Assembly (NCBI GenBank): GCA_018711625.1
Contig: DVID01000033.1
Span: 1-41,157 of the forward strand
DNA length: 41,157 bases
DNA from: Candidatus Limicola stercorigallinarum
Lineage (GTDB): Bacteria; Actinomycetota; Coriobacteriia; Coriobacteriales; Coriobacteriaceae
Reading direction: 5' to 3'
The notes under the pieces were generated by a model. The model saw only the letters and a program-made list of their open reading frames with translations. It did not search any database and had not been told where the DNA came from. Shown piece by piece: positions 23,319 through 28,450 of this stretch (positions within the stretch are counted from its first letter, which is position 1; each line of letters begins with the position of its first letter). The translations under genes were made by a program, and so were the position numbers.

Positions 23319-24401
23319 TTAGACAGCAGGCGGCTCGATGCCCAGGTGATCGAAGGCGACGGCAGTGGCGACGCGGCCTTGTGCGGTGCGCACGATAAGA
23401 CCCCGCTGCAACAGGTAGGGCTCATACACGTCTTCGAGCGTGGCGGGGTCCTCGCCCACCGCACTCGCCAATGTGGTAAGACCCACAGGACGCCCGCGGA
23501 ACGTTTTGACGAGCGTCTCCAGAATACGAATGTCCATCCAATCAAGACCCAGCTCGTCGATCTCGAAGAACTCGAGTGCCTCGCGTGCCGTTGCCAGATT
23601 GATTGAGCCACCGCCGCGCACCTGCGCATAGTCACGCACGCGTTTGAGCAGACGATTGGCCAAACGTGGCGTTCCGCGCGAGCGCGATGCAATCTCCTCT
23701 GCAGACTCTTGATCAATCTCGACATTCAAAATAGAGGCAGAGCGGCACACAATCTGGGCAAGGTCTTGCACTGAGTAATAGTCGAGCCTAAACGATATGC
23801 CAAAGCGATCGCGCAAGGGCCCCGTCAGCATGCCCGAGCGTGTGGTAGCACCCACAAGCGTGAAATGCGGAATATCAAGGCGGATGGAGCGCGCGGCCGG
23901 ACCCTTGCCAATGACGATATCAAGCGCGAAGTCCTCCATCGCTGGATACAGCACTTCCTCAACCGTACGATTGAGACGATGAATCTCATCGATAAAGAGG
24001 ACATCGCCCGGTTGCAGATTGGTAAGAATGGCAGCAAGGTCACCAATACGAGCAATCGCGGGGCCCGAGGTGATCTTGATCTGCGCCCCCATCTCGTTGG
24101 CCACCACCGTGGCCAACGTGGTTTTTCCCAAGCCCGGAGGACCTGAGAAGATCACGTGGTCAAGACACTCGCCACGACTCTGCGCCGCCTGAATGAGGAT
24201 GCGCAGGCTATCCTTGATATGTCCCTGACCGCAATAGTCGTCCAGGCGCTGGGGACGAAGCGAACGCTCCACGTCCAAATCCTCGGAAGTGAGGTTGCCC
24301 GTGACAAAGCGATCGGTGGCGTCACCGGCAGTAGCCCTGTTTATGCGATTGCGTGGTTCGTCGTCCCACAGGTCATGAGACTCGTCCGCTTCCCACATCA
24401 T
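23319..24401 (-). CDS. ruvB: Holliday junction branch migration ATPase RuvB
   Basis: A 360-residue AAA+ helicase motor that drives Holliday junction migration with RuvA. Walker A is GPPGLGKTT, Walker B contains FIDEIH, and the sensor/arginine-finger part [17 protein letters not shown] is intact. The C-terminal winged helix is complete, and an acidic N-terminal tail of about 40 residues precedes the conserved core ([13 protein letters not shown]). The ATG (24399-24401) overlaps the TGA of ruvA, so translation is coupled. It is last in ruvC-ruvA-ruvB. Confidence 0.98.
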
Positions 24402-25021
24402 GCGCCCATCCCCAGTCGCTTAAGCGCCGACGCAAGCAGATCCTCGGCGCGGCCATCGGTTGCCTCGAGCCCATTGAGCGCCAGGTCGGTCTCTTGCGGG
24501 CTGAAACCCATGGAAAGCAGCGCGGCGCGAGCGTCATCCAAGGCCGTGGTGTTCTCGGCAACAGTCCCCAGCGGCATCTGGCCGGCAAGCGGCGTAGCCG
24601 CAGCAGCCAAGCCGCGATCGTGTGCAAACACGCTTTTGAGCTCCAAGATAAGACGCTGCGCCGTCTTCTTGCCCACGCCGGGCACCTTGGACATGGTCTT
24701 CACGTCCTCGGCCATCACTGCCGTATAGAGCTGATCGGGCGAAAAGGTGGAGAGCACCGAAAGCGCCAGGCGCGCGCCCACGCCTGAAACCGCCACAAGG
24801 CGGTCGAACACGCTGCGTTCAGCTGCCGAAGAAAAGCCAAAGAGCGCAACGGCATCGCTGCTCACACGCATGCGGGTGTACAGCCGCACTTCGTCGCCAG
24901 CCTGGGGAAGCGCTGCCGCCGTAGTACCCGAAATGCCCACTTCATACCCTACGCCGCCCACATCTATGACGGCCTGGGACATGGTGGCTTCTAGCAGAAT
25001 GCCTCGTAACTGCGAAATCAT
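24398..25021 (-). CDS. ruvA: Holliday junction binding protein RuvA
   Basis: A 207-residue junction-binding subunit. Domain I begins [12 protein letters not shown] and has GVGYEV. The helix-hairpin-helix region includes [14 protein letters not shown] and [16 protein letters not shown]. The C-terminal domain III ([12 protein letters not shown]) contacts RuvB. Its start overlaps the ruvC stop by four bases. The frame is open upstream, but only this start fits the family. Confidence 0.98.
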
Positions 25022-25542
25022 GCGTAGGGGTCGCCTTTCTCTTGAATGTAGCGGCCACCGGAGAGTGCGGCCGTGGTACTGAGATTCACATGACACACGG
25101 CACACGCCAACGCGTCTGCCGCATGATCGGGCCTGGGGTCGTGATCGAGGTGCAAGAGATTCCGCACCATATAGGTTACCTGCCGCTTATCGGCAGCTCC
25201 CGTGCCCACCACCGCCTGCTTGATTTGCATGGGCGTGTACTCGCCCACCTCAATGCCCGCAAACGAGCAGGCCACCAAGGCGGCACCTCGGGCATGTGCG
25301 GTGGGAATGGCAGAGCGCGTGTTGGCACCAAAGAAGATGCTCTCGATGGCGGCAACGTTAGGGTGATAACGATTGGCAACAAGTGAAAGCTCGTCAACAA
25401 TCCGGCGTAGGCGCCAGGCCAAATCCAGATCGGCAGTGGTACGGATGCAACCATAGGCACGGCAGCGGCACGAGCCACGACGCTCTTCAACGATCCCCCA
25501 CCCGGTATTGGCCAGACCGGGGTCAAGGCCCAAGACGATCAT
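25018..25542 (-). CDS. ruvC: Holliday junction resolvase RuvC
   Basis: A 174-residue endonuclease that cuts Holliday junctions symmetrically. The acidic catalytic residues are D7 (LGLDPG), E67 (AIESIFF), D139 and D143 (PDHAADALA). The Q-V-V-G-T-G-A-A-D-K-R-Q-V loop is also present. A strong GGGAGGGG ribosome site precedes the ATG. It is the first gene of the ruvCAB operon and lies behind a LexA-type box. The last 25 residues form a variable tail. Confidence 0.98.
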   Translation of the reverse strand: MIVLGLDPGLANTGWGIVEERRGSCRCRAYGCIRTTADLDLAWRLRRIVDELSLVANRYHPNVAAIESIFFGANTRSAIPTAHARGAALVACSFAGIEVGEYTPMQIKQAVVGTGAADKRQVTYMVRNLLHLDHDPRPDHAADALACAVCHVNLSTTAALSGGRYIQEKGDPYA

Positions 25543-25707: not shown

Positions 25708-27708
25708 TTAGTTATCCGAGAAGAAGGGGAACCCGTGACCCGAAGGCATTTTGCCTGGCGGGAACGGCGGACGCTTGCCCTGCTGCGCAGAAGCGCTATG
25801 GGAATCCTCCCCCACCATGCGGTTGATGACGTCTTGCACCTGCTCCTCAAACTGCTTGAGGTTTTCCTGGATCTTGCGACGGCCCTCTTCAGAGCGCAGC
25901 TCATCAAGCTGTTCTTGCGTGAGGCCCAGCATCCCGCCGATGAAGCCCATCACCTCATCGCGCATGCGCTCGCCCATGTCCTCACCGCGCTCAGAGAGCC
26001 GGTCAACCTCCGCCTGCACCAAGCCAGCTATGGTCTTGGCCTCCTCGCCGTGCTTGCCCAAGTCAGACCAAGCCAGCGATGTTGGCCAGCAGCGCTCAGA
26101 GAACGAACGCCCCGAGACAATGGGAGTGGAGGGCAACATGCGACGTGCGTACTCGCCCTGTCGCACAAGCATGAGCAGAAGCGCCGTGGCCTCACGCTGC
26201 GTGGCCGCAAGCGGAAGCTCCTCAAAGGGCTTCATGCGGTCCACATGCGCCTCAAGTACGCCATCCACCTGAGCCGGCTCCAGCTGAGAAAGGGTCTGAG
26301 CTATATAGGCACTCCAATCGGTGTCATCCCAAGAGGGCGTCATGGCGCGTGCCAGAATCTCCCCAAGTGTGTGCTCCACAGCGTTGAGCGTCACCAAACG
26401 TGACGGCACCGCCTCGCCCGCACGATTGCGCATGCGCGCCAAGAATTCCAGCTCGGTAAGGTAGATGTCACCAAAGGGAGCAAACACTCCGTCAAAGCCA
26501 CCTAGATGCGCCGGCGCCGCCAGCGCCGCCTCAGTTTTGGTAAGGGCGCTCACGGGAAGCGCGTGCTCTTGACGCGCCACATCCTCAAGAAAAAGCCCCT
26601 CGATGTGCTCGTGCAACCGCGGCGTGCTGGCCGTAGGCACATCGCGATCGGCCCAGAGCGAAAGGTCGGGCGCCTCGCGCTCAACAAGCGGAATATGCAG
26701 ATGGGCGGCAAGGGTGCGCACAAGCTCGGCACGCTCGCGCTCCTCGGACTCTTGCGCGGGCGTGAACACGTTGGAACGCGCGGTAAACACGCCTATCACA
26801 TTCCGAGGACCCAGGGCATCCACGCAAAGCGCCGCCGCAAGCGAGGAGGGCAGATCGCCGGAGAGGCGAAGCGCCGCCCGATGGCACCCACGCGCCCGAG
26901 CGGTATCGCGCACCGCCAGGCAAAGCCCCTCCCACAACCAGAGTTCGCGCTGGTACTGGGGCAGTTCGCGCCGCTCAACACAGGGAAGCTGCTCCCCGCG
27001 CCGCACCTCTTGCACCAGAAGCGCCTCTTCAAAACAGGGCGCGGCAGCAACAACGCGGCCGCCCTCGTCCATTACAAACGAGCCTCCCGTATACACCGCC
27101 TCGTCGTACGCGCCCACGGGTGCCATATAGGCAAGCCACACGCCCGAGCGCGCCACGTCCTCGGCAAAGTGCCCGTCTGCCACCGCGGCAACAGCCGCCG
27201 TCTCCTCGTCCACAACATCAAACGCATTGGCTTGGAAGTACACGAGCACGTCGCACCCAGGAGGCAGCAGGCTTATATCGCGGTGCATGTCAAAGGTAAG
27301 CGCCACGCGCACGCCCGCTATGTCAAACACCGGCGGCGCCCACGCCTCTCCCGAGGCGGGATCGTGACGCAGGGCAAACAGTGAGCGCACCGGCACCACA
27401 TGGCCCCGATCGAGCACAAACACCTCAAGGAGCGCAGCGCCCTCGTAAGCCACCACCGCCGGCACAAGCGCCGCGATGTCCAACTGATCCAGTCGCTCGG
27501 CCAGCGCCGATAGAGCGCTTACCATATCGTGCTCAAAATCTTCAACCTCAATAAGCGACCCAGGGAGAATGCCCGCAAGCAGCGGAACCGGAACCGCCAG
27601 AAGGTCAGCTTCCTGCTCATGCGCCAGAATGGCCTGGCTCTCGATGCGCGCGCATACGCCCTCGATGTCTCCAAGTCGCATGTCAATCTGCGCAAGCGCA
27701 ATCTTCAT
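25708..27708 (-). CDS. NadE-like protein with degenerate glutaminase and synthetase sites
   Basis: A 666-residue protein laid out like glutamine-dependent NAD synthetase. It has a nitrilase-like domain (about 1-255), a synthetase-like domain (about 256-560) and an extra helical, Glu/Gln-rich tail (about 565-666). By eye, both active sites look lost. The expected glutaminase Glu in the PEL motif is V41 (V-P-V), the Lys position is not Lys (around 109-110), and the Cys of the CED motif is D140. The SGGxDS ATP loop reads S-G-D-L-P-S (283-288), losing Gly and the key Asp. Yet VYTGGSFVMD, the L-T-K-T-E segment and the GVFAPFGD region remain family-like, so selection seems to preserve the fold. ATG 27708 follows GAGGAG. 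A regulatory or structural role is possible; NAD synthesis by this protein seems unlikely. Confidence 0.72.
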   Translation of the reverse strand: MKIALAQIDMRLGDIEGVCARIESQAILAHEQEADLLAVPVPLLAGILPGSLIEVEDFEHDMVSALSALAERLDQLDIAALVPAVVAYEGAALLEVFVLDRGHVVPVRSLFALRHDPASGEAWAPPVFDIAGVRVALTFDMHRDISLLPPGCDVLVYFQANAFDVVDEETAAVAAVADGHFAEDVARSGVWLAYMAPVGAYDEAVYTGGSFVMDEGGRVVAAAPCFEEALLVQEVRRGEQLPCVERRELPQYQRELWLWEGLCLAVRDTARARGCHRAALRLSGDLPSSLAAALCVDALGPRNVIGVFTARSNVFTPAQESEERERAELVRTLAAHLHIPLVEREAPDLSLWADRDVPTASTPRLHEHIEGLFLEDVARQEHALPVSALTKTEAALAAPAHLGGFDGVFAPFGDIYLTELEFLARMRNRAGEAVPSRLVTLNAVEHTLGEILARAMTPSWDDTDWSAYIAQTLSQLEPAQVDGVLEAHVDRMKPFEELPLAATQREATALLLMLVRQGEYARRMLPSTPIVSGRSFSERCWPTSLAWSDLGKHGEEAKTIAGLVQAEVDRLSERGEDMGERMRDEVMGFIGGMLGLTQEQLDELRSEEGRRKIQENLKQFEEQVQDVINRMVGEDSHSASAQQGKRPPFPPGKMPSGHGFPFFSDN

Positions 27709-27734
27709 CGGTCACTCCTCCCCTCCCGCATGCT

Positions 27735-27758
27735 AAAAGGGCCGCCCGAAGGCGACCC
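27735..27758 (-). terminator. Terminator of the superoxide reductase gene
   Basis: On the minus strand an 8-bp stem (27758-27751 with 27746-27739, one mismatch) has a TTCG tetraloop and is followed by TTTT. It separates the SOR gene from the NadE-like gene. Confidence 0.8.
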
Positions 27759-27870
27759 CTCGCAAGTAAAACCTTACCGCAGCACCGCCCGCGTACGCTC
27801 GACGATTCGCCAGCGTCCACGCAAGCCCCTTCTCGAGCACATAGCCTCCGAGCACACGGCACTGAGAACC

Positions 27871-28233
27871 TTAGAACGTCTTCTTCCACAGCCCATGCAG
27901 GTTGCAGTAGGCATACACCGTGCCCGACTTCACGCCGCCCGCAAAAAACGTTGCCGGCGTCTGACCAGGCTTAAGATGGTGCACCTCCAAGCGGCCATCG
28001 GCCTCAAGCGCAATCCACTCAATATAGTGATCCTCGAGCATAGGATGCTCCACCTCGCCCACCGTGGCGTGCACAATGTGACCGTCGCGCTGCAAATCAA
28101 CCACGGGCACGTGCTTCTCTTGCGCGGCATCCGTGGCACCTGCCTCTAGGGGCGTGCATCCCGCTGGAACCGGAGACGAGGCATCGATCGTGGCGAATAC
28201 GTTGCCTTCCGCATCAGTAAAAAAGAGCGCCAT
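27871..28233 (-). CDS. Superoxide reductase (desulfoferrodoxin family, cysteine-poor N-terminus)
   Basis: A 120-residue superoxide reductase that would convert superoxide to hydrogen peroxide without making oxygen, typical of anaerobes. The catalytic iron ligands are all present: EKH (H41), H63 and H69 within EHPMLEDHYIEW, and C110 and H113 in YCNLHGLWK. The first 38 residues align with the desulforedoxin-like domain of two-iron SORs but retain only one cysteine (C26) of the four needed, as in Treponema-type (class III) enzymes. ATG 28233 follows AGAGGGG. CATAAT (minus strand, 28278-28273) may be its -10. It stands alone, with the terminator above behind it. Confidence 0.93.
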   Translation of the reverse strand: MALFFTDAEGNVFATIDASSPVPAGCTPLEAGATDAAQEKHVPVVDLQRDGHIVHATVGEVEHPMLEDHYIEWIALEADGRLEVHHLKPGQTPATFFAGGVKSGTVYAYCNLHGLWKKTF

Positions 28234-28450
28234 GGCTAATCCCCTCTCTCCTATTGTTTCAATTTGATTCCTATTATGCCCGGGCCACGCAAGCGCTAAT
28301 CGGTGTACGGCAACCCCACAAACGCAAGTACCTCCGCGCACATGCCGCATGAGCAGCACAAATGACCCACTGGCGACACAAGCCCCAAGGTCACGGCTCG
28401 AAAAGGACTCACCGCTTGCCTTTTCGTTCTTCGCATGCCGCACGATTCTC

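Follow-up and report, generated by a model that had tools for sequence, protein, structure and literature searches.

The closest described relatives of the protein studied here are the NAD synthetases. The two-domain enzyme NadE2-Gln (NF010588/PRK13981; structures 3n05, 5kha and 4f4h) is regulated by PII in other bacteria (PMC7196632). The octameric NadE1-Gln (PRK02628, including the M. tuberculosis NadE), in which the glutaminase catalytic triad has been defined as Cys-Glu-Lys (PMC6946656), is a more distant homologue, and the single-domain ammonia-dependent NadE (TIGR00552) has a homologous synthetase domain.

The window, the whole stretch of 41,157 nucleotides that was analysed, carries an open reading frame whose product, here called pseudo-NadE2, shares with NadE2-Gln the two-domain architecture, the fold and descent within the class (Table 1). 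However, it has lost the glutaminase triad, the ATP loop and the substrate loops, and has gained a tail of ~120 residues with an FSxN tip. NadE1, unlike pseudo-NadE2, is a longer and catalytically intact gene at a separate locus. A search of the open-access literature found no paper on an inactive NadE. Pseudoenzymes as a kind are already known; the pseudo-NadE2 family, the FSxN tip and the graded intermediates appear to be new.

Table 1. Features of the pseudo-NadE2 locus in the window.
Feature	Position	Strand	Details
pseudo-NadE2 ORF	25708-27708	minus	666 codons from ATG; 666 aa; two-domain NAD synthetase homologue
Ex-glutaminase (nitrilase-fold) domain	26989-27708	minus	residues 1-240; nitrilase-fold matches span 1-240
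Glutaminase Glu site, now Val	27586-27588	minus	~residue 41; alignment column
Glutaminase Lys site, now Leu	27379-27381	minus	~residue 110; alignment column
Glutaminase Cys site, now Asp	27289-27291	minus	~residue 140; alignment column
Ex-NAD synthetase (PP-loop ATPase) domain	26065-26946	minus	residues 255-548
Degenerate ATP loop SGDLPS, replacing SGGxDS	26845-26862	minus	residues 283-288
Added C-terminal tail	25711-26064	minus	residues about 549-666; AlphaFold2; missing from active orthologues
C-terminal tip FFSDN (FSxN motif)	25711-25725	minus	residues 662-666
ruvC, downstream neighbour	25018-25542	minus	then ruvA 24398-25105, ruvB 23319-24401
Desulfoferrodoxin/superoxide reductase gene (dfx), upstream neighbour	27871-28443	minus	

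Fold and active sites of the window protein

The window protein matched the Pfam families NAD_synthase (30.7 bits, cut-off 21) and CN_hydrolase (25.6 bits, cut-off 23.2), and NF010588 aligned with it from end to end over residues 1-542 (E 2.9e-40). The NF010588 score was 138.2 bits, under the curated NCBIfam cut-off of 479, while a true NadE2 of the class (L086) scored 743.5 bits; TIGR00552 was absent among the matches with E up to 10. The AlphaFold2 model (pLDDT 83.9, pTM 0.79) presented a NadE-like body, and the best match among solved structures was 3n05_A, a two-domain NAD synthetase (Z 28.9, 467 residues, 2.9 Å). The model and this match bear out the original prediction that the fold blocks remain. 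NadE2-like dimerisation was probably inherited along with them.

Changes in the catalytic motifs were read from an alignment of 88 sequences including true NadE proteins. The FPEL motif of true NadE reads VPVPLL in the window protein, the KRxLPNYGVFDE region has no Lys, and [IV]CED[IVA]W is reduced to FDM followed by a gap. In the synthetase half, LSGGIDSA has become LSGDLPSS, and the MPSRYSS, GNKSE, KDxFKT and KPPSAEL motifs are likewise changed. Both the Cys-Glu-Lys glutaminase triad and the SGGxDS ATP pyrophosphatase loop are therefore missing, as had been claimed from the DNA alone, and alignment with true NadE proteins restored no catalytic residue. The replacement extends well beyond these sites, as 95 of the 176 columns that are invariant in 18 true Coriobacteriia NadE proteins keep their residue in fewer than 10% of the pseudoenzymes. 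The homology of the window protein to NAD synthetase is not evidence of NAD synthetase activity.

The tail was predicted by AlphaFold2 to form helices at residues 560-593, 598-605 and 607-634, followed by disorder. A helical tail had been proposed beforehand, and these three predicted helices, together with the lack of the tail in active orthologues, agree with that part of the account; its most conserved feature, the FSxN motif at the extreme C-terminus, had been overlooked. Promoter and terminator scans of the window gave nothing beyond chance level, and Rfam and PADLOC searches of the window returned zero matches. A GC-rich hairpin followed by TTTT was noticed by eye between the dfx gene and the pseudo-NadE2 start (27730-27765, minus strand); it was not listed by the terminator scan of the window.

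Conservation and the order of events

Among 248 sampled genomes of the class, a strong match was present in each of those listed for the window's own family, and a separate search returned named records from Collinsella, Enorma and other Coriobacteriaceae. Both sites were lost in all fetched orthologues of this family (45/45) and of the sister family (23/23), each with an open frame, and both were intact in 18/18 orthologues from other orders of the class. The median dN/dS over 209 close pairs was 0.062 (Nei-Gojobori; pairs with dS >0.5 were dropped as saturated), compared to 0.013 for ruvC, 0.031 for ruvA and 0.095 for dfx, which indicates purifying selection. The NadE2 homologue is thus a pseudoenzyme, with residues dead across the clade, a retained fold and a sequence under purifying selection. 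A drifting pseudogene without function, to which the strong divergence and the varying tail length might point, is scarcely credible, because the losses are common to all of these orthologues, the frames are open, the tip is invariant and the dN/dS of 0.06 rules out drift.

The genome of the window also holds an intact gene of the octameric NadE1 (PRK02628) type, complete with the Glu, Lys, Cys and SGGLDS residues and located on a different contig from pseudo-NadE2; the second intact nadE that the original prediction had suggested looking for was therefore found. Together with the conserved loss of both sites, the retained fold and the low dN/dS, this separate enzyme upholds the proposal of a repurposed protein. 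NadE1 scored over the cut-off in genomes of the same family and in nearly all sister-family genomes searched, and under it in the live-NadE2 lineages searched, namely G228 and the members sampled from families f4, f25, f27, f28 and f29. Going by its presence, NadE1 presumably carries out the NAD chemistry in the genomes that have it, and pseudo-NadE2 probably does a different, non-chemical job. The synthetase-dead state is seen only in genomes with another NadE.

Intermediate forms were identified within the class. Other Coriobacteriia orders encode a NadE2 of ~535 residues with all catalytic residues, and several families of the same order as the window combine a dead glutaminase with an intact SGG(I/L)DS motif. 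In G228, the protein L057 has a dead glutaminase, intact synthetase motifs and a tail ending in FSKN; it scored 217.5 bits with TIGR00552, over the cut-off of 63.65, and is the sole strong PF02540 match in that genome (257.9 bits). G479, of the same family as G228, carries a synthetase-dead copy that also ends in FSKN, read across two contig ends that have the residues PHM in common; at another place its genome encodes a different NadE, which has a single domain.

In the tree, the glutaminase site was lost once, and G228 branched as the sister (100/96) of the fully dead clade, which itself was supported at 100/100. G479 grouped with the dead clade (95/86), and an AU test did not reject a G228 and G479 pair (p 0.277), so that the synthetase site may have been lost either once or twice, in the latter case independently in G479. 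Since G228, with a live synthetase and an FSKN end, is sister to the dead clade, the tip predates the loss of catalysis. The sequences show a succession that begins with the dimeric glutamine-dependent NadE2 of Coriobacteriia as the ancestor, in which the glutaminase site died first, when the order arose or soon afterwards. The FSxN-ending tail was gained next, with the synthetase site still intact, and that site is lost only where another NadE is present, with fold and tip held by purifying selection.

The two-domain NadE proteins L180-L206 (families f4, f25, f27, f28 and f29) have a dead glutaminase and an intact synthetase site; to judge from these residues, they probably depend on ammonia for NAD synthesis even though they have two domains. 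The one family-f3 protein examined, L207, was single-domain. Live synthetases of family f29 (L185-L188, L190, L193-L200 and L203-L206) have a tail of 32-36 residues with a final Asn, ending for example in WDISAN, WDFLAN or NFLDN. This short tail may be homologous to the FSxN tail or convergent with it; the tree needs two changes.

The C-terminal tip and candidate functions

The end of the tail is far more conserved than the rest of it. All 49 non-redundant sequences had Asn at position -1, Ser at -3 and Phe at -4, and the next-best position within the last 40 reached only 55%. Among distinct sequences, 88 of 89 ended in FSxN and the other in FAxN. The orthologue of G242, which has diverged too far for the homology search to detect it, is a 1085-aa frame (L244 from 2694) at the syntenic position (dnaE, orthologue, ruvC) with the motif remnants VDGTLATN and LPFGDLY; it has an acidic, Asp/Glu-rich tail of ~500 residues and ends in PFSIN. 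The tip was predicted to be disordered in both AlphaFold2 models, with a pLDDT below 50, which is normal for any terminus. Pseudo-NadE2 is the sole gene of its own genome with an FFSxN end, and the idea of FFSxN as a shared C-terminal tag was rejected.

A folded body, a variable linker and an invariant free end are the pattern expected of a docking motif. SSB is an example of a protein whose conserved docking tip sits at the C-terminal end of a disordered linker. Pseudo-NadE2 resembles SSB-type proteins in these three parts, but the SSB tip sequence is not FSxN, and the likeness concerns a possible similar mode of action, with no homology claimed. On a modest balance of probability, we favour a retained NadE2-descended pseudoenzyme, repurposed as a scaffold whose tethered tip docks on a partner. 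The NadE body would serve as a stable, probably dimeric platform, the flexible tail would offer FSxN-COOH as a short motif on which a partner protein could dock, and two or more tips might recruit or cluster that partner. The motif could also serve as a signal for localisation, degradation or assembly, or could bind in cis; docking in cis was unsupported by either AlphaFold2 model, as read from pLDDT and not from coordinates.

The docking partner must be common to all three families, and NadE1 and PII are disfavoured. PII (PF00543) was not found in G000, G066, G186, G042, G237 and G171, all of which carry the gene; these absences take in the genome of the window and several complete or nearly complete carriers, and PII was rejected as an obligate partner. 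The suggested regulator of nitrogen metabolism thus found no support, and neither did a specific role in NAD metabolism, since the tip is already present in genomes without NadE1. The conserved neighbours are dnaE, the desulfoferrodoxin gene and ruvCAB, with no nad or nitrogen genes.

A metabolite sensor, in which the synthetase half would bind ATP, NaAD or NAD without chemistry and signal through the tail, appears unlikely. In its favour, K391, D414, R427, R522 and G284 are fixed across true and pseudo proteins; however, these residues are possibly structural, and three loops (PP-loop, MPSRYSS and KPPSAEL/TDxDxLPxYD) have disappeared or been replaced.

An accessory role in DNA replication or recombination, with the tip bound to one member of the dnaE/ruvCAB group, seems distinctly unlikely. 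The order dnaE-dfx-pseudo-ruvC-ruvA-ruvB occurs in both diverged families, whose common ancestor probably had it already, although dnaE is no longer at the locus in the window; at most pseudoenzyme loci, and also in G228, dfx is the upstream neighbour. In G056 (family f2, probably Atopobiaceae), the one complete genome in which the gene was missing, pseudo-NadE2, ruvC and ruvB were all not found, while ruvC and ruvB are both present in its congeners G044 and G175. The function is dispensable in G056, and a single deletion of adjacent genes may account for the joint loss. Because the gene does not adjoin ruvC in G228 and G479, despite the tip, a connection to DNA repair is no more than a lead.

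Modulation of NadE1 in trans, as a hetero-oligomer or docking partner, is improbable. NadE1 accompanies the dead state in both large families, but its gene lies on another contig in the genome of the window, and it is an unlikely tip receptor because G228 and G479 have the tip without a NadE1 above the cut-off. It is very improbable that the protein is a still-active enzyme with an unusual mechanism or another substrate: the fold and some residues are kept, but the nucleophile, base and phosphate-loop residues are missing, and the newly fixed residues show no catalytic-looking set.

Significance for the Coriobacteriales

Pseudoenzymes are common, but living intermediates from which the succession of changes can be fixed are rarely available. 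In this case the active enzyme, the half-dead form, the half-dead form with the tip and the fully dead scaffold all survive, which makes the idea that a new function precedes the loss of catalysis directly testable. The family is also a warning for annotation, as NAD synthetase homology does not imply activity here. A more speculative and rather doubtful extension of the scaffold reading is that the tip was gained by an active enzyme, which another NadE freed from catalysis, and that the protein is now the hub of a new Coriobacteriales interaction module, possibly in DNA replication or repair. The invariant FSxN end provides a concrete handle for a partner search in cultivable gut bacteria such as Collinsella.
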